Position numbers and translations under genes: made by a program. The notes under the pieces were generated by a model. It saw only the letters and a program-made list of their open reading frames with translations, was not told the DNA's origin and made no database searches. Shown here in pieces: positions 1-10,861 of a stretch of 11,059 bases of DNA; position 1 is the stretch's first letter; each line of letters opens with the position of its first letter. The DNA comes from Candidatus Abyssobacteria bacterium SURF_5 (GTDB lineage Bacteria; Abyssobacteria; SURF-5). Location of the stretch: the NCBI GenBank assembly GCA_003598085.1, contig QZKU01000082.1, forward strand, positions 1 through 11,059, read 5' to 3'.

Positions 1-1
1 C

Positions 2-3000
2 TACGAAATTAGGGATGTTCTTGGCGAAGGTGGCTACGGAAAAGTCTACAAAGTCCATCATCTTGACTGGGATATGGATATGGCGGTCAAGACGCCGAAT
101 GAGGCCGCCATCTCCAGAGCAGGCGGCGTCGAGAGTTTTGTCCGTGAATGCCATACGTGGATGGACCTCGGCCTGCATGAGAATATAGTCACCTGCCATT
201 TTGTGCGCGTTCTGGGAAAGGTTCCCCGAGTCTTCGCCGAATACGTCGAAGGCGGCACACTTTCCGATTGGATCGAGACAGGAAAAATATATGAGGAAAG
301 CCCTGAAGAGGTAAGCGAACGCATCCTCGACATCGCCATACAGTTCGCCAGAGGTCTCGAATACGCCCACTCCAGAGGCATGGTGCACCAGGATGTTAAG
401 CCAGCCAATGTTTTGATGACTTTCGACGGAAACGCCAAGGTAAGCGACTTCGGGCTGGCAGGCGGGGCGCTGGAACTGCCGAAGGGAGTTTCATCCGAGC
501 AGGTTGCTTCAGTTGATCGCACGTTTGCGGGCATGACGCCGCGGTACGCTTCTCCCGAGCAGGCGCAGGCCCATGCCCAGCGCGCGGCGGGTGTCCCGAG
601 AGAGAATGTTGTCCGGATAACCCCGCACTCCGACCTCTACTCCTGGGCGGTATCCATCTTCGAGATTTTCAACGGCGGCACCACCTGGCCGTCGGGGACG
701 GTGGTGGGCGAAGCGTTCAGGGAATATCTTAAGACCGGTCCTGCCGAAGAATATCTGCCTGCGATGCCCGAGTCCCTTGTTTCTCTCCTCTCCAATTGTC
801 TGCATGGAGACCCTGCTGAGCGGCCGAAATCGATGTCTGAAGTGATTGAAAACCTCAAGGCGATCTATGGAGAAGAGACAGACCGTGAATATTCCCGTGG
901 AGAGCCGAAACAACTCGCTGAGATGGCCGATGTTCTGAACAACAAAGCTGCCTCATTTCTCGAACTGGATATGCCTGACGAAGCCGAGAAACTTTGGGAA
1001 GAAGCGCTGAAAATTGACCCGCATCATGCGGAAGCGACGTATGGCTTGTGTATTCAACAATGGCGAACTGCAAGAATCACCGATCTGGAAGCGATCAGAC
1101 GAATGGAAGAAGTACGGACAAGTCATGAATCCGATTGGGTTGATGATTACTTGCTTGGCCTGATTCACCTGGAACGTGGCGACAGAGGCACTGCAGTAAA
1201 AATTCTGAAAGAAACTGTTCATCTATCAGGGAAGAACACACAGGTTCAAAAAACCCTTAAGCAGGCGCGCACAGCAGGTATCCCATCCTGTGTGCGCACA
1301 CTCTCAGGCCATACAGGCGCCGTTTACGCTGTCACAATCTCCCCAGATGATCGGCTCGCGCTCTCGGGATCAAGTGATAATACAATCCGTCTTTGGGACA
1401 TAAAAACCGGGAGATGCCTACAAACACTCCTAGGACATTCGCAGACTATCCATTCCGTCGCGTTCTCCTCAGACAGCCGGTTCGCGCTGTCCGGAGCATG
1501 GGATGGAACGTTGATGCTTTGGGACATCAACAGCGGTCAATGCTTGTGCATATTCGGGAGACATTCGCAGCCCGTTTATTCCGTTGCGTTCTCCTCAGAC
1601 GACCGGTTCGCGCTGTCCGGAGCAGAAGACAGAACCCTTCGGCTGTGGGATGTAAAAAGTGGTGAGTGCCTGCGCATATTGAAAGGACATACAGCCGGTG
1701 TCCATTCCGTTGCCTTTTTCTCAGACAACCGGTACGCTCTTACGGGATCATTTGACCAGACTCTTCGGCTGTGGGACATAGGAACCGGGCAATGCCTGCG
1801 CACATTCGTAGGAGACACGGAGCCGGTTCATTCCATAGCGCTATCTCCAAACGGCCGGTTCGCAGTGTCGGGAGCCGCTGGCGAACTCCCATTCGAAGAC
1901 AATCAAACCCTCGCGCTCTGGGACATTGAAACCGGCCGGCGCGTACACAAATTTGAAGGGCACACAAGCGGTGTTCGTTCTGTCGCAATCACATCAAGTG
2001 GCCGTTTCGCGCTCTCAGGATCAAATGATAACACTCTCCGGCTCTGGGACATAGAGAGTGGTCGATGTCTCCACACATTAGAAGGTCATACAAAACGCGT
2101 CTTTAGCGTGGCAATCTCTTCAGACGACCGCTTCGCGCTCTCGGGTGGAAACGACGATACGCTTCGACTTTGGACTCTCACTCTCGGCGCATCATCAGAA
2201 AGAGCAGTATTGTGTCGGGTCCTGGCTACTGCGACTATTGCCGATTATGAGAGCCATGTGCACGACCTCGCGTCAATTGCGGAATCTAAGTTGGCCTTGG
2301 GGAATGTCGCCGGCGCTTATGATAGCATCTCCGAGGCTATGTCTGTTCCCGGTTATTCAAAATCAGCAAAACTCCTGGGACTTCGAGCCAAAGCATGTTC
2401 CAAGGGCAGAATTCGCGCCTTCTTACAGGGATGGCACGTTCGCACATTTGAAGGACACACAGACAGTGTACAATCTGTAGTTTTCTCGTCAGATAACCGA
2501 TTTGCGCTTTCAGCGGGATGGGTTAAAGATCGCACTCTGCGGCTTTGGGATTTAAGAACCGGTCACTGCCTCCGCATTTTCAAAGGGGGAGTCCAGTCCG
2601 TCGCCTTGTCCGCGAACGGCCGGTTAGCGCTTTCAGACGCATCTGACTGCAAGCTTCGACTCTGGGATATTGAAACTGGTCACTGCCTGCGCACTTTTAA
2701 AGGGCACACAGAGACTGTCAATTCCGTCGCCTTGTCTTCGGACGGCCGGTTCGCAATGTCGGGAGCATATGACAACACTCTTCGGCTTTGGAATATTGAA
2801 ACCGGTCAATGTCTGCGCGTAATAAACGGCGAATCCCATGTCCCATCACCGGTCGTCGACAACTTCGGGCTTTCTGAATCAGCTGACAACAAACTCCAGC
2901 TTTGTGACTTTTCAACTGGTCAGTTTTTTCAAGATAAACTCCATCTAAAACCAGGCTTCACTTCTATTGCATTGTCCTCGGACGATCGTTTCGCTCTCTC

Positions 3001-3718
3001 GGGATCAACAGACAAGACTCTTCGACTGTGGGACATCCGAAGCGGTCGATGTCTACGCATTTTCGAAGGGCACCGAGACCTCGTAGTTTCCGCCTCTTTC
3101 TCCCAAGATAACCATTTTGCTCTTTCAGTAGCGGATAAACCAAGGCTATGGGACGTTCAAAGCGGTCGATGCCTGTGTACTTTTGAAGGAAATGAAAGCG
3201 TTGTCCTATCTATCGCATTCTCATCAGACCGCCTGTTCGCGCTCTCAGGGTCATTTGATAATGCTCTTCGGCTGTGGGAAATCGAAACTGGTCGATGTCT
3301 GCGTACTTTTGAAGGACACAAGGAGATCGTTCGTTCCGTCGCATTCTCCTCAGACGGCCGCTTTGCGCTTTCGGGATCAAATGACAACACTCTCCGCCTC
3401 TGGGAACTCGTGTGGGATTACGAATTTCCCGAGCCCGCTGATTGGGATGAGGGCGCAAGGCCTTACTTGGAATGTTTCCTGACTCTGCAAACGCCCTATG
3501 CAGCCGAATTGCCGGCAATTCGAGAACCAACTCAGGAGGAAATCACACTCGCTCTTACGCGCCGCGGCAAACCATCATGGGCCGAAGAAGATTTTGAAAA
3601 TCTCCTGACGCACTTGAGCCATTGCGGCTACGGCTGGCTCAGACCCGAAGGAGTCCGGAAAAAGCTCGAAGAAATGACCTCAGATTGGCACGGCCCGCAT
3701 TCGCTGTCGGGAACCTAA
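2..3718 (+). CDS. Ser/Thr protein kinase with TPR-like region and 15 WD40 repeats (5' end outside window)
   Basis: This is a Hanks-type protein kinase fused to protein-binding repeats. The frame is open from the first complete codon at position 2, so the gene starts upstream; the ATG at 74 lies inside the kinase domain and is not the start. Visible motifs: glycine loop GEGGYGKVY (nt 23-49), VAIK-type lysine in MAVK (nt 80-91), catalytic HQDVKPAN (nt 386-409), DFG (nt 446-454), and SPE in place of APE (about nt 551-559). The catalytic Arg of HRD is Gln, making it a non-RD kinase. No transmembrane segment is seen after the kinase domain, suggesting a cytosolic protein. TPR-like helices follow (about nt 890-1275), then a 7-repeat WD40 array, a helical linker (about nt 2192-2434), an 8-repeat array and a conserved C-terminal domain ending in TAA at 3716-3718. 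By family knowledge it phosphorylates Ser/Thr on partners held by the propellers. Its substrate is unknown; downstream FHA and Clp genes suggest a link to regulated proteolysis (inference). Confidence 0.95.
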   Translation, partial: YEIRDVLGEGGYGKVYKVHHLDWDMDMAVKTPNEAAISRAGGVESFVRECHTWMDLGLHENIVTCHFVRVLGKVPRVFAEYVEGGTLSDWIETGKIYEESPEEVSERILDIAIQFARGLEYAHSRGMVHQDVKPANVLMTFDGNAKVSDFGLAGGALELPKGVSSEQVASVDRTFAGMTPRYASPEQAQAHAQRAAGVPRENVVRITPHSDLYSWAVSIFEIFNGGTTWPSGTVVGEAFREYLKTGPAEEYLPAMPESLVSLLSNCLHGDPAERPKSMSEVIENLKAIYGEETDREYSRGEPKQLAEMADVLNNKAASFLELDMPDEAEKLWEEALKIDPHHAEATYGLCIQQWRTARITDLEAIRRMEEVRTSHESDWVDDYLLGLIHLERGDRGTAVKILKETVHLSGKNTQVQKTLKQARTAGIPSCVRTLSGHTGAVYAVTISPDDRLALSGSSDNTIRLWDIKTGRCLQTLLGHSQTIHSVAFSSDSRFALSGAWDGTLMLWDINSGQCLCIFGRHSQPVYSVAFSSDDRFALSGAEDRTLRLWDVKSGECLRILKGHTAGVHSVAFFSDNRYALTGSFDQTLRLWDIGTGQCLRTFVGDTEPVHSIALSPNGRFAVSGAAGELPFEDNQTLALWDIETGRRVHKFEGHTSGVRSVAITSSGRFALSGSNDNTLRLWDIESGRCLHTLEGHTKRVFSVAISSDDRFALSGGNDDTLRLWTLTLGASSERAVLCRVLATATIADYESHVHDLASIAESKLALGNVAGAYDSISEAMSVPGYSKSAKLLGLRAKACSKGRIRAFLQGWHVRTFEGHTDSVQSVVFSSDNRFALSAGWVKDRTLRLWDLRTGHCLRIFKGGVQSVALSANGRLALSDASDCKLRLWDIETGHCLRTFKGHTETVNSVALSSDGRFAMSGAYDNTLRLWNIETGQCLRVINGESHVPSPVVDNFGLSESADNKLQLCDFSTGQFFQDKLHLKPGFTSIALSSDDRFALSGSTDKTLRLWDIRSGRCLRIFEGHRDLVVSASFSQDNHFALSVADKPRLWDVQSGRCLCTFEGNESVVLSIAFSSDRLFALSGSFDNALRLWEIETGRCLRTFEGHKEIVRSVAFSSDGRFALSGSNDNTLRLWELVWDYEFPEPADWDEGARPYLECFLTLQTPYAAELPAIREPTQEEITLALTRRGKPSWAEEDFENLLTHLSHCGYGWLRPEGVRKKLEEMTSDWHGPHSLSGT
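1289..2191 (+). repeat. First WD40 array: seven repeats
   Basis: Seven consecutive WD40 units lie inside the kinase gene and begin at nt 1289, 1415, 1541, 1667, 1793, 1940 and 2066. The first four are each exactly 126 nt (42 residues). The fifth is 147 nt because of a seven-residue insertion around GELPFED. Each unit follows the pattern C-L-x-T/I-x-x-G-H, then SVA-S-D-x-R-F-A-L-S-G, then D-x-T-L-R-L-W-D. Seven units are the usual number for one closed beta-propeller. The repeats are similar at the DNA level too: units 2 and 3 share the string CGGTTCGCGCTGTCCGGAGC, which is consistent with tandem duplication or gene conversion between units. Confidence 0.93.
2435..3410 (+). repeat. Second WD40 array: eight repeats, some degenerate
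   Basis: Eight further WD40 units begin at nt 2435, 2567, 2684, 2810, 2924, 3050, 3170 and 3296. The 3rd, 5th and 7th of these are exactly 126 nt. The second unit (2567) and the sixth (3050) are shortened. The fourth unit (2810) is degenerate: it lacks the GH signature and has CD instead of WD. This array probably forms a second propeller, with either eight blades or seven plus an eroded unit. A helical linker of about 80 residues (nt 2192-2434), with a TPR-like stretch around LALGNVAGAYDSISEAM, separates it from the first array. Confidence 0.9.
3404..3715 (+). repeat. Conserved C-terminal domain of the kinase, copy 1 of 2
   Basis: These are the last 104 residues of the WD40 kinase, starting at ELVW directly after the last repeat. 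Landmarks are FPEP-DWDEGARPYL, LTRRGKPSW, an E-E-D-F/Y motif, LLTHLSHCGYGWLRPEGVR, and a variable Gly/Pro/Ser tail. Nt 4801-5112 encode an equally long homologue. By hand alignment 82 of 104 residues are identical, with no gap. I do not recognise it as a named domain. The dense conserved core and highly variable last 15 residues indicate a small folded module with a flexible tail. Confidence 0.85.
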
Positions 3719-3865
3719 CAATGGAATCGATCATTTTGGAATGACAAATAACTGCAAGAAGAAATGGAGAAACAAGGTTGAAATGAGAACAGGACAGGAG
3801 GAGAAACTGGGGCAGCCAAGCTGGCAAGGTGGCAGGCGCCAAAGCCGAATAGGAAAGGAGATGAC

Positions 3866-4387
3866 ATGAATTTGCTTAAAGTGGCCCAGAAAGCAGAGGC
3901 CATCACCGGAGATAGGGCGGTCGGGAAACCTTCTCCAACTATGCGGCCTAACGGTACTTCATCGATCACATTCAGAGGTTCCAAGGGATGGTACGACGTT
4001 TATGAAGACCCCAATGAGGGTCTCATGGTTCTCTTCCTGGAAGGGCAGGAGAAACCTACAGGCAAGATCCTCGGGGCGTATTACACGCAACCTAAGCCTG
4101 CGGACGTGGAGGCGGCAAAGTTGGTTTCCCTGGTGCTGATATCGGTGAAAGTGCTGAAATCAGTGAAATCTTTGCCGACCTTCCAATATGGTTACATGTC
4201 AATGGACCCGAAGGGCGTGAACTGGAAGCGCTTCGCTATTGGTGGGAAAATGCTCCTGGTCAAGACCCGCAGAGCGGGAGCCAAGACGTATGGTGAGATC
4301 ATTGCCGGTTCGCTTATGGTTGGCGTGATAATTTCCGCCGATGGCGCGATTGAGAAGGTCGGCAAGATTCCTTCTAGCCGCCTTTAA
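3866..4387 (+). CDS. Hypothetical protein, 173 aa, inserted between the two WD40 genes
   Basis: I do not recognise this protein. The start is ATG 3866, preceded five bases upstream by the strong ribosome site AAAGGAG (3854-3860); the ATG at 3861 reaches a stop after two codons. The sequence looks cytosolic: there is no signal peptide or clear membrane helix. A possible beta-rich part (ITFRGSKGWYDVYEDPNEG, then MVLFLEGQ) is followed by a Lys/Val-rich stretch (LVSLVLISVKVLKSVKSL) and a C-terminal Gly/Ile-rich segment (EIIAGSLMVGVIISADGAIE). It sits 147 nt after the kinase gene and 32 nt before the truncated WD40 gene, so it is probably cotranscribed with the latter. Its place between two homologous WD40 tails suggests it moves or duplicates with that family. 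A role as a partner of the kinase is only a guess from position. Confidence 0.8.
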   Translation: MNLLKVAQKAEAITGDRAVGKPSPTMRPNGTSSITFRGSKGWYDVYEDPNEGLMVLFLEGQEKPTGKILGAYYTQPKPADVEAAKLVSLVLISVKVLKSVKSLPTFQYGYMSMDPKGVNWKRFAIGGKMLLVKTRRAGAKTYGEIIAGSLMVGVIISADGAIEKVGKIPSSRL

Positions 4388-4404
4388 AAACTGCTGAAGA
4401 AAAA

Positions 4405-4408
4405 GGAG
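4405..4408 (+). promoter_or_regulatory. Ribosome binding site for a TTG-started WD40 gene
   Basis: GGAG within AAAAAGGAGAA lies 11 nt upstream of TTG 4420. It supports a TTG start, since no in-frame ATG or GTG occurs between here and the first WD40 unit at 4441. The spacing is slightly long and the start is therefore uncertain. Confidence 0.45.
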
Positions 4409-4419
4409 AAGCCGAATCG

Positions 4420-5115
4420 TTGGGAGATCATCCCGCGAAGTGCCCGCGCACTTTCCAAAGACACATACCGGATAAGTTTTGTCGCCTTTCTCCGGATGGC
4501 CGTTTCGCGCTTTCGGGATCTGAGGATAATACGCTTTGGCTGTGGGATATCAACAGCGGAAAATGCCTGCGAATATTCGAAGGACACACAGGCCCTGTAA
4601 CTTCTGTTGCCATTTCTCCAGACGGCCACTTTGCAGTCTCGGGATCGAAGTGGGACTGGCCGCTTCGGCTGTGGGATGTTACAACCGGGAAGTGCCTGCG
4701 CACATTCGAAGGACGCTCAGGCAATGTGACTTCTGTGGCTTTTTCTTCAGATGGTCATTTCGCGCTTTCGGGATCTGATGACAAGACTCTTCGGCTGTGG
4801 GAACTGGTCTGGAATTACGAATTTCCTGAACCGGTTGACTGGGATGAAGGGGCGAGACCGTATCTTCAATCGTTCCTGACTTTGCATACGCCGTATGCCG
4901 CCGAATTGCCGGCGGATCGAAAACCGACCGAGGACGATATCACACTTGCCCTCACGCGCCGGGGCAAACCCTCATGGAACGAAGAAGATTACCAGAAACT
5001 CCTGACACACCTCAGCCATTGCGGCTACGGCTGGCTCAGGCCCGAGGGTGTGCGAAGAAAGCTCGAAGAAATGGCCGCCGGCTGGCAAGGCCCGCCGCCT
5101 CTGCCAGGGACGTGA
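4420..5115 (+). CDS. Truncated WD40 protein: three repeats plus the conserved kinase C-terminal domain
   Basis: This gene resembles the 3' end of the upstream kinase gene but has no kinase or TPR part. WD40 units begin at nt 4441, 4564 and 4693, followed at 4801 by the 104-residue C-terminal domain. The first unit is eroded: after CPRTFQRH the reading departs from the consensus (IPDKFCR in place of about eight residues) and recovers at LSPDGRF. This fits small compensating indels, including a lost T near 4489. Three repeats cannot close a seven-blade propeller alone, so the product must either pair with other repeats or be a decaying remnant. Against simple decay, the ORF is intact to TGA 5113-5115. 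Differences from the kinase tail in the C-terminal domain are also mostly synonymous third-base changes (for example GTG/GTC, CCC/CCT, GAG/GAA). The start is assigned to TTG 4420 with modest confidence; a pseudogene fragment is the main alternative. Confidence 0.7.
   Translation: MGDHPAKCPRTFQRHIPDKFCRLSPDGRFALSGSEDNTLWLWDINSGKCLRIFEGHTGPVTSVAISPDGHFAVSGSKWDWPLRLWDVTTGKCLRTFEGRSGNVTSVAFSSDGHFALSGSDDKTLRLWELVWNYEFPEPVDWDEGARPYLQSFLTLHTPYAAELPADRKPTEDDITLALTRRGKPSWNEEDYQKLLTHLSHCGYGWLRPEGVRRKLEEMAAGWQGPPPLPGT
4801..5112 (+). repeat. Conserved C-terminal domain, copy 2 of 2
   Basis: This is the homologue of nt 3404-3715, with 82 of 104 residues identical by hand alignment. Differences cluster in two places: the DRKPTEDD region and the last 15 residues. 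The core LLTHLSHCGYGWLRPEGVR is unchanged between copies. Confidence 0.85.
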
Positions 5116-5141
5116 CAAGAATACCGAAGAGATTCAACTGT

Positions 5142-5147
5142 GGAGGG
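5142..5147 (+). promoter_or_regulatory. Ribosome binding site that sets the start of the 100-aa gene
   Basis: GGAGGG lies five nt before ATG 5153. A longer in-frame reading reaches back to 5048, but that would overlap the conserved end of the WD40 gene. The ATG at 5148 is out of frame. ATG 5153 is therefore preferred. Confidence 0.7.
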
Positions 5148-5152
5148 ATGTT

Positions 5153-5455
5153 ATGGAAATTCCCGAGATTAATCTCCGAGACGTCGCCAATATCCTATTT
5201 CTGATTGCAGAGCGGCCGAACATGAGAAATCGACCACTCCCCGGTGATATAGACGGAGATTTTGACTATTGGTTCGATGGCGGGGCCGTCAGAGGAGTCA
5301 CCGGCACAACTTCTTATGAATTCATCGACGGCACCGAAGCGATGGAAGGCGTCCTTCCCTGGATTTCGCTCACAATACGCTTCGCCAATGGAGCAAGGGT
5401 AGGCGTTCATCAGGAACACGAGAAGGAGGCAATAGATACGGAACTGGAATTATGA
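5153..5455 (+). CDS. Hypothetical protein, 100 aa
   Basis: I do not recognise a family. It starts at ATG 5153 behind GGAGGG and ends at TGA 5453-5455, 37 nt after the truncated WD40 gene, so the two are probably cotranscribed. The protein is acidic and soluble, with no signal peptide or membrane helix. The N-terminal part (EINLRDVANILFLIAERP) looks helical. It is followed by a Gly/Asp-rich stretch (GDIDGDFDYWFDGGAVRG) and a probable beta segment (WISLTIRFANGARVGVHQE), then a charged tail (EHEKEAIDTELEL). The size and acidity would fit a small binding or inhibitory partner, but nothing in the sequence proves this. Confidence 0.75.
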   Translation: MEIPEINLRDVANILFLIAERPNMRNRPLPGDIDGDFDYWFDGGAVRGVTGTTSYEFIDGTEAMEGVLPWISLTIRFANGARVGVHQEHEKEAIDTELEL

Positions 5456-5620
5456 TCCGCTCAAGCAATTTCGTCAGAAATGAACCAGCGGCTTGACCTG
5501 AAATGCAGCGCTATCGGAGCCGGCTGAGGAACAGGTCCGGGAGCGAATGCGAATACACCGAAGGCATATGTAAACCCGTATGTCCGACTCGATCATAAGG
5601 TTGCCGAAAGGGAGTATCCC

Positions 5621-7282
5621 ATGATTGAACTCGAAGTGGTAAACGGGATAGCGAAAGGAAACACGCTCAGGACCAACGCGCCGTACATCACCATTGGCCG
5701 GTCGCAGGCCGACAGCATTGTCGTTCCCGACGCTTATGTTTCATGGCACCACGGCGAGATTTCTCAGCGCGATAAACACTATCGATATCGGGACCTCAAC
5801 AGCACTCATGGCACGATTCTCAGGCGGATGGACGCCGAGAGATACATCGACACGGTTGTCCTCAGAGAAGGCGACGAATTGCTTCTGGCGGGCCCGGAAA
5901 ACAGCGTCCGGGTGAATGCAATCATTCCCGGCGAAGGGGCTCCCGGAGAATTTACTCTTACCGTGGCACGCCAGGCTTCCGATGAGCCCGGCCCGCCGGA
6001 AGAAGTGCTTGGCGACGACTCGCACGCTCTTCAGACCATCCTTCGGCTGGACAGGGCCATGCAGTCCCTCAAAAGCATGGATTCGAACTCGCTGTTCACG
6101 GTCTTGACCGAAAAGATTGCGGAGATATACCCTGAACTGGAGTACGTCGCAGTCGTCCAGGAAAGCGGCGACACGGTATTCATCGAGCACTGCGGTTTCC
6201 AGCGCAAAGGCGCGAGATGCAGGACAAGCTCGACCATCCTGCGCAAGACGCTCGGAAGAAAGGGCGGTATCATCTTCGAGATATCAGACGAACGAGTGGC
6301 GCCGCAAGATGAGGAATCGGCGACGCTGAGCCCCAGAAGCATGACCTCGGCACCCGACGCTACCGGCATATGCATTCCCTTACTGAAAGGATCGCAGGGA
6401 GACAGTTACCTGCAGATGGAACGCCGCCTTGTGCAGGGGAGATTCTCCGGGCGCGACCTGAACCTGGTGAGTTCCATGGCCTCCCGCGTAATCAACCGAA
6501 TCGACCACTTGGCGCTCAACAGGCGATATCTGAGCATGAGTCAGAACGCCGCCATCGGCGTTTTCACAAAAATGATTGCCCACGATATCAAAAACTATCT
6601 GACATTTGCGCAGTACATCGATGAAAAGCTTCAGAACGTCGACGAGCATCCGGATATTGTCCTCGGGGTGGAACGCGCCTATCGGCTCGCACTCGGAATG
6701 GGGAATCTTACCGGTTCCGGCTCGAAACCGACCAGCCGAATATCGCTGCCTGAGACAGCCGGCGGAATTATGAGAGAATTCCACTTGCTTTTTCAGAAGC
6801 GATGCGCGTTCGAAGCCGTTGTTCTCGGAAATGCAACCGATATTGTGAGCAACGAAGAATTGCTTCGTCGCACGCTTTGGAACCTCGTAATGAACGCATT
6901 TTACGCGTTCGGAAATCGCGACCCCGCGATCTCAGAGCCTCCGCTTGTCAGATTACGTATTGAGCCGAAAGGGAAGAAAAATGTTATCATCAGGGTCGAA
7001 GACAATGCGGGAGGCATAGACTCGCGCACTTTGGATTATCTTGAGAAAGCCTTTGCTCTGGTCAGGGACGTCTATGAGCGTGAGGAAGATCTGATCCATG
7101 TGGTAGAGACCATCTACAACATGGAGGGGTTTACGAATCGGGTGGGGTTATTTTTTACCGCCGTCGCCGTCAACGACATGTGGGGGACGATTGCCGTGAC
7201 CACCGAAAAAGGGAAAGGCAGCGTGTTTACCGTGCAATTGCCGCGCAAAATCGATAAACTAAGAGACCTGCTCAGATTTTAG
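5621..7282 (+). CDS. Soluble FHA / GAF-like sensor histidine kinase
   Basis: This is a 553-aa cytosolic histidine kinase whose N-terminal domain belongs to the phosphothreonine-reading FHA family. ATG 5621 follows AGGGAG (5609-5614). The FHA domain covers about residues 1-100: GRS 26-28, V-S-W-H-H 40-44 and DLNSTHGT 58-65; the usual Asn of STNGT is His63. A GAF-like segment follows (about 135-295). The H-box is AHDIKN with His321, the likely autophosphorylation site. In the ATPase domain the N-box is NLVMNA (421-426) and the G1 box is EDNAGGID (460-467). The usual GxGLGL ATP-lid motif is degenerate (NRVGL, 506-510), while a terminal GKGS is kept (531-534). No membrane segments are visible, so the signal is intracellular. 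The receiver gene 26 nt downstream is the expected phosphoacceptor. A phosphorylated product of the WD40 kinase is the plausible FHA ligand (inference). The 165 nt upstream hold no gene or promoter that I can support. Confidence 0.93.
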   Translation: MIELEVVNGIAKGNTLRTNAPYITIGRSQADSIVVPDAYVSWHHGEISQRDKHYRYRDLNSTHGTILRRMDAERYIDTVVLREGDELLLAGPENSVRVNAIIPGEGAPGEFTLTVARQASDEPGPPEEVLGDDSHALQTILRLDRAMQSLKSMDSNSLFTVLTEKIAEIYPELEYVAVVQESGDTVFIEHCGFQRKGARCRTSSTILRKTLGRKGGIIFEISDERVAPQDEESATLSPRSMTSAPDATGICIPLLKGSQGDSYLQMERRLVQGRFSGRDLNLVSSMASRVINRIDHLALNRRYLSMSQNAAIGVFTKMIAHDIKNYLTFAQYIDEKLQNVDEHPDIVLGVERAYRLALGMGNLTGSGSKPTSRISLPETAGGIMREFHLLFQKRCAFEAVVLGNATDIVSNEELLRRTLWNLVMNAFYAFGNRDPAISEPPLVRLRIEPKGKKNVIIRVEDNAGGIDSRTLDYLEKAFALVRDVYEREEDLIHVVETIYNMEGFTNRVGLFFTAVAVNDMWGTIAVTTEKGKGSVFTVQLPRKIDKLRDLLRF

Positions 7283-7293
7283 GTGTGAACTCG

Positions 7294-7307
7294 AAAGGAG
7301 AGAGAGG
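7294..7307 (+). promoter_or_regulatory. Ribosome binding site that sets the receiver start
   Basis: AAAGGAGAGAGAGG lies directly before ATG 7309, with the AAAGGAG core eight nt upstream. An in-frame GTG at 7285 is upstream of this site and would add eight residues with no homology to receivers. ATG 7309 is therefore chosen. Confidence 0.75.
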
Positions 7308-7308
7308 A

Positions 7309-7686
7309 ATGGCGGACTTGGTCATCGCGGACGACGAAACCGAGGTTCGGAAGAAACTGGAAAAGGAACTGAAGCACGCGGGTCATAGCGTCCGGCTCGC
7401 TCATGACGGGCTTGGCGCTCTGGATACGGTGATGGAGTCGGCTCCGGACCTTCTGCTTGTTGACTGGCTGATGCCCGTTCTCACCGGCGGCGAAGTCATC
7501 GAACGCCTCAGGACGGACGAGAAGTTCGCGAAAAAGGACATCCCAATCATCGGGATGACCGACCTCGGCGACGACAAGAATATAAAGGTATTCATTCAGC
7601 GCGGGGCCGATGATACCTGGATGAAGGACTTGAGCGCGAAGGGGATCGGCGAGTTGCTCGGCAAGATTCAGCTTCTTCTCAAATAG
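7309..7686 (+). CDS. Stand-alone receiver-domain response regulator
   Basis: This is a 125-aa CheY-like receiver with no output domain. From ATG 7309, the acidic Mg-binding pair is Asp8/Asp9 (IADDE) and the phosphoacceptor is Asp52 (LLVDWLMP). The switch residue is Thr84 (IGMTD), and the conserved Lys is Lys106 (DDTWMKD). The Pro that normally follows this Lys is Asp. All residues needed for phosphorylation are present, so it should be active. It lies 26 nt after the histidine kinase and 105 nt before the Clp unfoldase gene. With no DNA-binding or enzymatic domain, it must act by protein contact. Single-receiver or receiver-based adaptors that deliver substrates to ClpXP are known (CpdR, RssB). 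An adaptor role on the neighbouring Clp complex is the most attractive inference; a phosphorelay intermediate is the alternative. Confidence 0.95.
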   Translation: MADLVIADDETEVRKKLEKELKHAGHSVRLAHDGLGALDTVMESAPDLLLVDWLMPVLTGGEVIERLRTDEKFAKKDIPIIGMTDLGDDKNIKVFIQRGADDTWMKDLSAKGIGELLGKIQLLLK

Positions 7687-7791
7687 TCCCGCTGTGCGGT
7701 CCTGTCAAATTGCTGTTGTGGGGCCGGAAACCTTCAAACGGCTGAACGAGATTCATCAAGAAGATTCAGTCATTCGCTGGGAGGGGAAGCG

Positions 7792-10251
7792 ATGGAATTA
7801 TCACCGGGCGGCAGGCTGCTGGTTGCAGTCGCCATAGCCGAGACAACCTTCACCAAGTGCAAGGAAATCGAGCCCGAGCATTTCTTCGCGGCCTTGTGCA
7901 AGATACCCGACCTCCCGAGACAAATTATCGAGGAGGTCGTAGGGACTTCTGCGGACACTGTCAATCGCGTCAACCGTGAAAGGGCGGCCGTACATGAGAA
8001 GCTCATGAAAGCCCGGATCGACCCGGTGCAGACCCGCAGGCGCGTGAGAAGAATGATTGGCAAAGAAACAGCGTTGTTAGGACAGTTCACCGAAAAGCTT
8101 TCTCAGCGCGGCCACCGGGTCTTCCAGTCAGCCGAACGAAGGGCTATGAGCCTCGGCGAGGCGCCGGTTCAACCGCTGCACATTCTCTGGGCCATCCTCT
8201 CGGAAGGAAGCTCGCTGCTTCAACAGGTTTTCGGCGACACAAAAGGCGCCTGGACTCTCTTGTGCAACCAGTGCGGCGTTCCACCGCCGGTAATACATGC
8301 CCCTGAAGATGAAATCGAAGGCATCGTAGTAATTAATGATATCGAAATTCCACCCGAGCCGCCCGCTCAAAGGGCGGCGCCAAAGCCGAGCGCCCACCCG
8401 CCGACCCCCTTCCTCGACAAGTTTGGCCGCGATCTGACCGCTCTTGCACGCGCGGGCAAGCTTTCTTCATGCATCGGCCGCAGGGAGGAAATGCGAACGA
8501 TGGCCCAGATACTGAGGAGGCGGACCAAGAACGCCCCCGTGCTGGTTGGCGACGCCGGGGTCGGCAAGACCTGCATCGTTGAGGGGTTGGCCCACCGTGT
8601 GGTTCATCCTCAAGCGCCCCAAACCATACGCGACTGGCGCATCGTCGAAATCAGCATGGGCAGCCTCATTGCGGGAACGACACTCCGCGGAATGTTCGAG
8701 GAGCGCTTGCAGAATGTCGTCAATGAGGCCAAATCGGATCAGCATCTCATCCTGTTTATCGACGAGATTCACACGCTCGTCGGAGCGGGAGGCTCGAGCG
8801 AATCGGGCATGGATGCGGGTCAAATTCTGAAACCGGCGCTGGCCCGAGGAGAAGTCAGGCTCATCGGCGCAACGACAACGGCCGAATACCGGAAATACAT
8901 CGAAGCCGATGCGGCGCTCGAGCGAAGAATGCAGATGGTGTGGGTGAACGAGCCGACGGGAGAAGAGGCTATCGAGATACTTGACGGCGTGCGCTCGACC
9001 CTCGAAAAGCATCACGGCGTCTTCATCACCCACGACGCTGTCGTGCGAGCGGTCGAGTGGTCGATGCGCTACCTGCCGGACCGGCGGCTGCCTGACAAGG
9101 CGCTGGATATCATCGATCAGGCGTGCACGGCGGAAATCATGAAAACCCTCTCTCCGGTTGCCCGCTTCAATGCGATCCAGCCGAATCCGTCAATCGGAAC
9201 TCCTCCGGCCCAGGTGACCGAGGAAGATATCGCGCGAGTCATTTCCGAAAGATGCCGAATCCCTGTGGGAATGATTGCGGTCGATGACGCGCAGCGCCTC
9301 CTGCGCCTCGACGAAACGCTGGCGCGGCGCGTTATGGGACAGGATGAGGCCATCAGACAGGTCGCCGACACCGTCCGAACGGCGCGCGCGGGCCTGAAAA
9401 AACCGAACCGGCCGGTTGGCGTGTTCCTGTTTCTCGGGCCGACCGGTACCGGCAAGACCGAACTGGCGAAGGCGCTTGCAGAAGCGCTGTTCGGAAATGA
9501 GGAAGCGCTCCTCCGCTTCGATATGTCCGAATACGGCGAAAAACATAATGTCGCCAGGCTCATCGGCGCGCCGCCCGGCTACATCGGCCACGATGAGGAA
9601 GGACAACTGACCGGCAGGGTCCGAACTCGGCCCTACAGCGTCATCCTTTTCGATGAAATCGAAAAAGCTCATAAGGACGTCTTCGATGTGTTTCTCCAGA
9701 TTTTCGACGATGGCCGCCTCACCGACTCGAAAGGACGGCGCGCCAGCTTCACCGAAAGCATCATCATCATGACTTCTAACCTCGGAACTTCAGCCGGGCC
9801 GGCGCCTCAGAAGCGGGATATCGGCGTCAGTCTCGGCCCCCCAGCCGAGCCGACCGGAGAAAGAAACATCGCACAGCAAAAAAACGAGCAGGAGCGCCGC
9901 GTGCAGGAGGCGTTGACGGGAGCTTTCCGTCCCGAACTGCTGAATCGCATCGACCGCAAGATCGTGTTTGCTCCGCTTTCCCGTGAAGTCGTCACCAGGA
10001 TTCTGGAAAAACTGATTGACGGCCTGAACAAGCGACTGGAGGATCAGTCCGTCGAGTGCGAATTCTCGCAGGAAGTCAGAGACCTCATCATGGAAAAGGG
10101 GTACAGCGAAACATACGGCGCCCGCGAACTCGAGCGGGTTTTCGAAACGCTCATTACAACTCCGCTGGCGCGGGCGTTGCTGGAAGGTAGGGTCGAGACG
10201 GGACAGACAGTTCGATTCGAACTCCGGAACGGTGAAATCCGCTTCGCATAG
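7792..10251 (+). CDS. ClpA/ClpC-type two-ring AAA+ unfoldase, ATPase subunit of a Clp protease
   Basis: This is an 819-aa Hsp100 protein that unfolds substrates with ATP and feeds them to ClpP. ATG 7792 follows GGGAGGGG (7779-7786). The N-domain has two Clp_N-like repeats (about residues 6-45 and 107-148), separated by an unusually long basic helical stretch with RRRVRR (82-87). A Pro-rich linker (185-207) leads to ring D1: Walker A GDAGVGKT 253-260, Walker B LFIDE 321-325, arginines 378-379. Ring D2 has Walker A GPTGTGKT 549-556, Walker B ILFDE 618-622, pore loop GYIG 596-599, sensor 1 MTSN 660-663, Arg719 and sensor 2 GAR 776-778. The ClpB coiled-coil middle domain is absent. IGV at 677-679 sits where ClpA/ClpC carry the IGL/VGF-type ClpP-docking loop. 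The D1 pore loop reads TLRG rather than KYRG (297-300). The clpP gene starts 13 nt downstream, so the two subunits are presumably made together. ClpV of type VI secretion is unlikely because of the docking loop and clpP neighbour. Confidence 0.95.
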
Positions 10252-10257
10252 GGAGGA
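10251..10257 (+). promoter_or_regulatory. Ribosome binding site that sets the clpP start
   Basis: GGGAGGA overlaps the last base of the unfoldase stop codon (TAG 10249-10251) and lies eight nt before ATG 10265 (measured from GGAGG). The in-frame GTG at 10232 lies inside the unfoldase gene and would add 11 residues not seen in ClpP proteins, so it is rejected. Confidence 0.8.
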
Positions 10258-10264
10258 TATTCTT

Positions 10265-10861
10265 ATGGCCAACCTTATTCCGTACGTGCAGGAGATAACG
10301 CCTCACGGCATGCGTACGATGGACCTGTATTCGCGCCTTTTGGGAGAACGCATTATTATGCTGACTGGAGAAGTCAACGATCAGGTGGCGGACCTCATAA
10401 CCGCTCAGATGTTCTATCTCGAAAGCGAGGACCCGGGAAAGGATATCAGGTTCTATATCAACAGCCCGGGCGGGGCCGTCACCGCAGGGCTTGCCATCTA
10501 TGACGCGATGCAGTATGTGCGCTCCGACGTCGCCACCATCTGTCTCGGGCAGGCCGCCTCGATGGGAGCGGTCCTGCTGGCAGGCGGTGCGGCGGGAAAA
10601 CGAATTGCCATGCCCAACGCAAGGGTCATGATCCATCAGCCGCTTGGCGGCGCGCAGGGCCAGATTTCCGATATGGAAATACATGTGAAGGAAGGCAAGC
10701 GCCTCAAGCAGCGGCTAAATGAGATACTGGTTCATCATACCGGCCGGTCGATGGACATAATCCAGCGTGACACCGACCGCGACTTTTTTTTGACCGCCGA
10801 AGAGGCGAAAACGTACGGAATCGTGGACCAGATAGCGGTGCGACAAGGGGAGAGAGGATAG
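10265..10861 (+). CDS. clpP: ATP-dependent Clp protease proteolytic subunit ClpP
   Basis: This is a 198-aa serine peptidase of the ClpP family that forms the barrel in which unfolded proteins are cut. Its length is normal for bacterial ClpP. The triad is complete: Ser99 (GQAASMGA), His124 (MIHQPLGG) and Asp173 (in RDTDRDFF). The family motifs YINSPGG (64-70), PLGGAQGQ (126-133) and [13 protein letters not shown] (176-188) are intact. The N-terminus NLIPYV resembles mature ClpP, so any propeptide is very short. It is translationally close to the unfoldase gene (13 nt gap), which supports a dedicated ClpAP/ClpCP-like complex. No clpX or tig lies beside it, unlike the usual housekeeping tig-clpP-clpX order, so this is probably an additional, specialised clpP. 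A run of eight T (10784-10791) follows the catalytic Asp codon. Confidence 0.97.

Follow-up and report, generated by a model that had tools for sequence, protein, structure and literature searches.

We analyzed a window of 11,059 bases that makes up an entire contig (C82) of a draft genome assembled into 145 contigs with a total of 5.1 Mb. The window G+C content (0.547) matches that of other contigs of the genome (0.54-0.56), and a paralogue of the first window gene is found on contig C14; for both reasons, contamination is unlikely. Analysis of open reading frames together with profile searches showed that the five proteins named in the preliminary description (a WD40-repeat Ser/Thr kinase, an FHA histidine kinase, a lone receiver, a ClpA/C-type unfoldase and ClpP) are all encoded on the plus strand where that description had placed them. 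Its gene list was incomplete, omitting two orphan ORFs and a gene fragment (Table 1), as well as the fact that the window is a whole contig. Spacing is tight in the second half of the window. The histidine kinase and receiver reading frames are separated by 2 bases (26 bases to the receiver ATG), the receiver and the ATPase by 105 bases, a gap that allows a separate promoter, and the ATPase stop codon and the ClpP ATG by 13 bases. Scanning the window for terminator-like and promoter sites gave matches at chance frequency at most, and no RNA families were found in it.

Table 1. Genes and gene remnants along the 11,059-base window.
Feature	Position	Strand	Remarks
WD40-repeat Ser/Thr protein kinase	2-3718	+	Kinase domain, then TPR-like linker, WD40 repeats and a C-terminal tail; paralogue on C14; membership in the system uncertain
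Orphan ORF, 173 aa	3866-4387	+	No family
WD40-kinase-type gene fragment	4420-5115	+	Three repeats and C-terminal tail; its tail matches that of 2-3718 at 79% identity
Orphan ORF, 102 aa	5147-5455	+	No family
FHA, GAF-like, histidine kinase	5621-7282	+	H-box HDIKN, N-box and G1 intact; G2 box degenerate
Stand-alone receiver domain	7285-7686	+	Likely ATG start at 7309; phosphorylation site, conserved T/K
ClpA-like double-AAA+ unfoldase	7792-10251	+	N-domain of divergent Clp_N type; coiled-coil M-domain absent; IGV as putative ClpP loop
ClpP peptidase	10265-10861	+	Second copy in the genome, other than the one beside a ClpX-like gene

Since the reading frame of the first gene begins at the contig edge, the N-terminus of the WD40 kinase is missing. 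The remaining kinase domain (Pkinase, E = 4.5e-35) has the catalytic motifs that had been reported for it: the G-loop, HQDxKPAN, DFG and SPE can all be recognized, with MAVK showing the VAIK-type lysine. The closest paralogue, on C14, is 85% identical in the kinase domain, and the DNA is 84% identical over window positions 1-1183. The two contigs stop at the same point inside these paralogous genes (C82, window 1-1183; C14, L155:9773-10955), a shared end that is probably a repeat-driven assembly break. On C14 the kinase gene is followed by genes for an FHA-kinase, a PP2C phosphatase and a TPR protein, and no Clp gene was found within the ~11 kb examined. The WD40 kinase family sits in phospho-signaling loci, though not generally with Clp genes. 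The C-terminal tail of the kinase was found in only three places, all in its own genome, and is absent from genomes G001 and G002; the 4420-5115 fragment is a probable duplication remnant. Because this remnant follows the kinase gene and the FHA kinase gene begins nearly 2 kb further on, we treat the WD40 kinase as a neighbor of uncertain relevance. It is the weakest link of the proposed system, and the idea that it feeds the FHA domain is rather unlikely. As a defining part of the system it was rejected, given its paralogue family in the genome and the different setting on C14.

For the FHA histidine kinase, Pfam recognizes only the FHA (PF00498, 45.7 bits, E = 9e-12) and HATPase_c (E = 8e-10) domains; the order FHA, GAF, HisKA, HATPase was derived by alignment with such proteins of other genomes. 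The motifs of this protein had been described as intact, which holds for the H-box, N-box and G1 box but not for the G2 box, which reads RVGLFF instead of GTGLGL, nor for the whole of the FHA domain, where GRS is present, SWHH stands for SRxH and the NGT motif is altered to HGT. A peptide-pattern scan of one genome for each of 84,980 species, which would miss distant relatives, returned no close relative of this kinase, and none was found in viral contigs, in plasmids or in the host phylum (poorly sampled; the search there took in three genomes). FHA-GAF-histidine kinases of the same phylum, for example at L077 and L017, share the domain order of the window kinase but are only ~22% identical to it overall, have canonical G2 boxes and have no Clp gene seen alongside. 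Structure prediction without an alignment was unusable for both the FHA kinase (pLDDT 34.7) and the ATPase N-domain (pLDDT 40.5).

The adjoining receiver (Response_reg, E = 3e-18) is an ordinary single receiver domain. The description of its motifs as intact was borne out, with the acidic pair, the Asp in VDW, the Thr and the Lys all present and no output domain. RssB has a second domain, unlike the window receiver. Membership in the CpdR or RssB family was considered and rejected, as the receiver reaches neither family-model cut-off (CpdR, 41.8 against 180; RssB, 42.8 against 329).

The ATPase carries two Walker A/B sets, with a short linker alone and no M-domain between D1 and D2, and has an N-domain that is weakly Clp_N-like. 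It scored 669.6 bits against the ClpA equivalog model TIGR02639 (cut-off 993.15) and reached none of the cut-offs set for the ClpA, ClpB, ClpK, ClpG and ClpV models. We rejected its assignment as a canonical ClpA, ClpB or ClpC, given the missed cut-offs, its separate grouping in the tree described below and, with respect to ClpB and ClpC, the missing M-domain. The claim of a ClpP-docking-like loop agrees with the alignment as to position: DIGV in the window aligns with the LGF or VGF docking loops found in ClpC and in the clade relatives. A loop of this type is expected to read [LIV]G[FL] ahead of FRPEFxNR; the clade relatives retain an [LIV]GF form, compared to which the IGV of the window is weakened. 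The D1 pore loop (around residues 295-300) reads TTLRG in the window and KYRG in clade relatives, with loss of the tyrosine in the window; the D2 loop, GYIG, is intact.

Relatives of the ATPase were sought in four overlapping genome sets: 386 from diverse families, 24 from the G064 phylum, 386 from the G048 phylum, and 384 that are relatives of G365. Full-length relatives were present in two other families only: f47 (G048, G468, G609, G700 and G520), which looks cyanobacterial, and f63 (G064 and G398), from another phylum. Two clade members among the 384 genomes scored 1315-1347 bits compared to 877 for the next match, with both included in the model; scored before inclusion in the model, G398 reached 985 and G520 1099, whereas in the G064 phylum the best of the other matches stood at ~775. 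No further clade members were found at threshold in five genomes of the G129 phylum. In the tree, the window ATPase grouped with f47 (SH-aLRT 92), a placement that is not firm because its own branch is long (1.03), and all eight sequences, including those of f63, fell on one side of a branch (78), separate from ClpA-type (19) and ClpB/ClpC-type (44) rows. The window ATPase thus appears to belong, if not firmly, to a rare, non-canonical and apparently undescribed Clp clade.

Several other Clp arrangements were observed. In two genomes of one genus, Clp ATPases of ~1,170 aa (L140:6850-10374 and L141:508-4008) are extended at the N-terminus by ~330 aa that match no known family. At L143:10307-18000, at least five consecutive WD40-repeat ORFs directly follow a ClpA/ClpC-type gene. 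On the minus strand of L137 (8413-11988), a Clp ATPase carries a CHAT domain (E = 7e-13) at its N-terminus, ahead of Clp_N and two AAA+ modules, and a gene with an FGE-sulfatase domain adjoins this fusion.

ClpP starts at a GTG at 10232 or, more likely, at the ATG at 10265, and has the full triad that had been attributed to it (S110/H135/D184, GTG numbering). It scored 265 bits against PF00574 and, at 293.4, just under the cut-off of the equivalog model TIGR00493 (308.6); among PDB entries it matches ordinary ClpPs best (E = 6e-77). A special origin for this protein was rejected, as the best matches (~62% identity) are in many unrelated genomes with no special kin. Because the other full ClpP of the genome, on contig C92, adjoins a ClpX-like gene, the window ClpP is an extra, apparently dedicated copy.

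We examined the neighborhoods of the ATPase relatives. In the two f63 genomes, which represent two genera, a Ser/Thr kinase-TPR gene lies directly upstream of the ATPase gene and ends within ~100 bases of its start. In G520 (L217:3385-16211), the genes directly upstream encode a hybrid histidine kinase of 1,621 aa and a lone receiver, and a CHAT-TPR gene lies on the other side. No signaling gene was found near the ATPase in the four closely related f47 genomes (G048, G468, G609 and G700). With neighbors defined as kinase, FHA, histidine-kinase or receiver genes within 2.5 kb, detected by similarity to the window proteins, signaling neighbors were present for two of the three other clade lineages but for only 2 of the 30 other Clp loci scored (p = 0.03 in a one-sided Fisher test, or p = 0.006 with the window counted among the lineages), statistics that are suggestive only since the lineages are few, the question is post hoc and detection was by similarity to the window proteins. 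The f63 kinase-ATPase pairs (L136:5411-10047 and L214:5131-9965) are a conserved kinase-unfoldase pair and arguably merit study more than the window does.

One reading of these neighborhoods is that the clade is really regulated by a Ser/Thr kinase, which would change substrate choice by phosphorylating the N-domain or a bound adaptor, and that the histidine kinase and receiver of the window are secondary. The position of the kinase-TPR gene in G064 and G398 is in line with this idea, as is the WD40 kinase upstream in the window, whose paralogue has FHA and PP2C genes as neighbors, and PrkA-ReoM-ClpCP of Listeria, in which a Ser/Thr kinase controls Clp-dependent degradation, provides a precedent (PMC7286690). 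However, the window WD40 kinase is 4 kb upstream of the ATPase, with two orphan ORFs and the gene fragment in between. Its kinase domain shares 25-30% identity with the f63 kinases, which are no nearer to it than other kinases are, and the f47 members have no such kinase directly adjoining. The PrkA system differs in having a PASTA kinase and the intermediates ReoM and ReoY, without a histidine kinase or a receiver, both of which are present in the window. We consider regulation by a Ser/Thr kinase improbable for these genes. Equally improbable, in our estimate, is a combined scheme in which phosphothreonine signals, passed from the Ser/Thr kinase to the FHA domain, and His-Asp signals would converge to gate a ClpAP-type protease, with the kinase-TPR protein or the hybrid-kinase/receiver pair taking the same role elsewhere in the clade.

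The interpretation we prefer, though tentatively and with somewhat less than even confidence, is that the four-gene block at 5621-10861 encodes an accessory ClpAP-type protease beside its own two-component switch, with the receiver as adaptor. The FHA-GAF histidine kinase would integrate a cytoplasmic cue, possibly a phosphothreonine protein (via FHA) and/or a small ligand (via GAF), and would then phosphorylate the lone receiver. As it has no output domain, the receiver would act by binding, most simply to the divergent N-domain of the adjacent ATPase, and could serve as a phosphorylation-gated adaptor (or anti-adaptor) that chooses the substrate reaching the ClpP chamber. Judged by sequence, the receiver and ATPase motifs and the ClpP triad look functional; the phosphotransfer, the receiver-ATPase binding, the pairing of the ATPase with the window ClpP and the identity of the substrate are what we infer. 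The tight spacing, the intact motifs, the recurring signaling neighbors of the clade and the extra ClpP were counted in favor of this mechanism, and the degenerate G2 box, the loop with IGV rather than GF, the D1 pore with TL for KY and the failure to find a second four-gene genome were counted against it.

The chief rival, which we rate almost as likely as a receiver-gated protease, is an accident of gene order. An unrelated FHA-kinase/receiver pair would then happen to precede an accessory ClpA-ClpP operon, with a paralogous WD40 kinase upstream by chance; the receiver would work elsewhere, in a phosphorelay or as a diffusible regulator, and the protease would be constitutive or stress controlled. 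Conservation of the gene set bears directly on this possibility. None of the clade relatives and none of 30 other Clp genes had a ClpP gene within 2.5 kb, and the ATPase-ClpP pair is therefore so far unique to the window. Neither an FHA kinase, ClpP nor a WD40 kinase was present beside the ATPase relative in any of seven genomes, and no second genome with the same four genes (histidine kinase, receiver, ATPase and ClpP) was found in the genome sets searched. The exact five-gene set, which had been put forward as a system, is not conserved and fails the refutation test proposed with it, the searches above having returned no close relative of the FHA kinase and the partners being missing beside the ATPase in all seven genomes. 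This lack of conserved co-occurrence fits an accident of gene order. Chance neighbors are also made easy by the 20 Ser/Thr kinase matches and several FHA proteins of the 5.1-Mb genome, and FHA-GAF-histidine kinases exist away from Clp genes, including a paralogue in the same genome. Shared strand and tight spacing, the position of an output-less receiver directly upstream of the ATPase, and the recurrent signaling neighbors of the ATPase clade in other phyla argue against chance. The preliminary interpretation is partly supported: the more general proposal, of phospho-signaling joined to a dedicated Clp machine, gains independent support from the kinase and receiver neighbors that recur in the clade. 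The part worth following is the rare Clp ATPase clade with its recurring kinase neighbors.

We also considered a conflict, defense or cell-suicide module, in which phospho-signaling would trigger a Clp effector protease upon infection. CHAT domains occur in the vicinity of the clade, in a near-clade Clp ATPase fusion in G129 and in the CHAT-TPR gene near the G520 ATPase, and comparative studies of regulated conflict systems mention Clp_N domains and Clp-like proteases, though not the set of genes in the window (PMC7159879, PMC8195603). The kinases are weakly similar to the PADLOC models mad6 and PD-T4-6, but these matches were rejected as evidence for defense since they are generic, as expected of any Ser/Thr kinase or AAA+ protein. 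With no recognized defense gene and no similar island elsewhere, such a module is very unlikely.

Regulation of a Clp protease through a receiver, as in the mechanism we prefer, has precedents. CpdR of Caulobacter is a single-domain response regulator that acts as a ClpXP adaptor (PMC8973945), and RssB is a response-regulator adaptor that delivers RpoS to ClpXP (PMC7226468). The proposed mechanism resembles CpdR-ClpXP in that a histidine kinase would phosphorylate a lone receiver, which would gate a Clp protease; the resemblance to RssB-ClpXP lies in receiver-controlled delivery to a Clp protease, as proposed here. Whereas CpdR has ClpX as its binding partner and CckA as its kinase, the window encodes a ClpA-like ATPase with an adjoining ClpP and an FHA-bearing kinase. 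Like ClpAP, the window combines a double-AAA+ unfoldase without an M-domain, carrying a putative ClpP-docking-type loop, with ClpP, but the ATPase falls outside the canonical ClpA group, its N-domain is divergent and no ClpS-like ORF was recognized beside it. The literature searched yielded no receiver adaptor for a double-ring ClpA/ClpC-type enzyme, no receiver protease adaptor with an FHA kinase and no described Clp ATPase lineage with repeated kinase neighbors. The earlier statement that no system with this gene set has been described agrees with our finding none in the open-access full-text literature, which is weak evidence.

Receiver-gated ClpXP being already known from CpdR and RssB, what is new here is the placement of the ATPase in a rare clade and the recurrence of phospho-signaling neighbors. 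If the pairing of signaling proteins and protease holds, it would provide a direct route from protein phosphorylation to the choice of substrates for proteolysis, and the small clade would allow the link between phosphorylation and proteolysis to be tested with few proteins.
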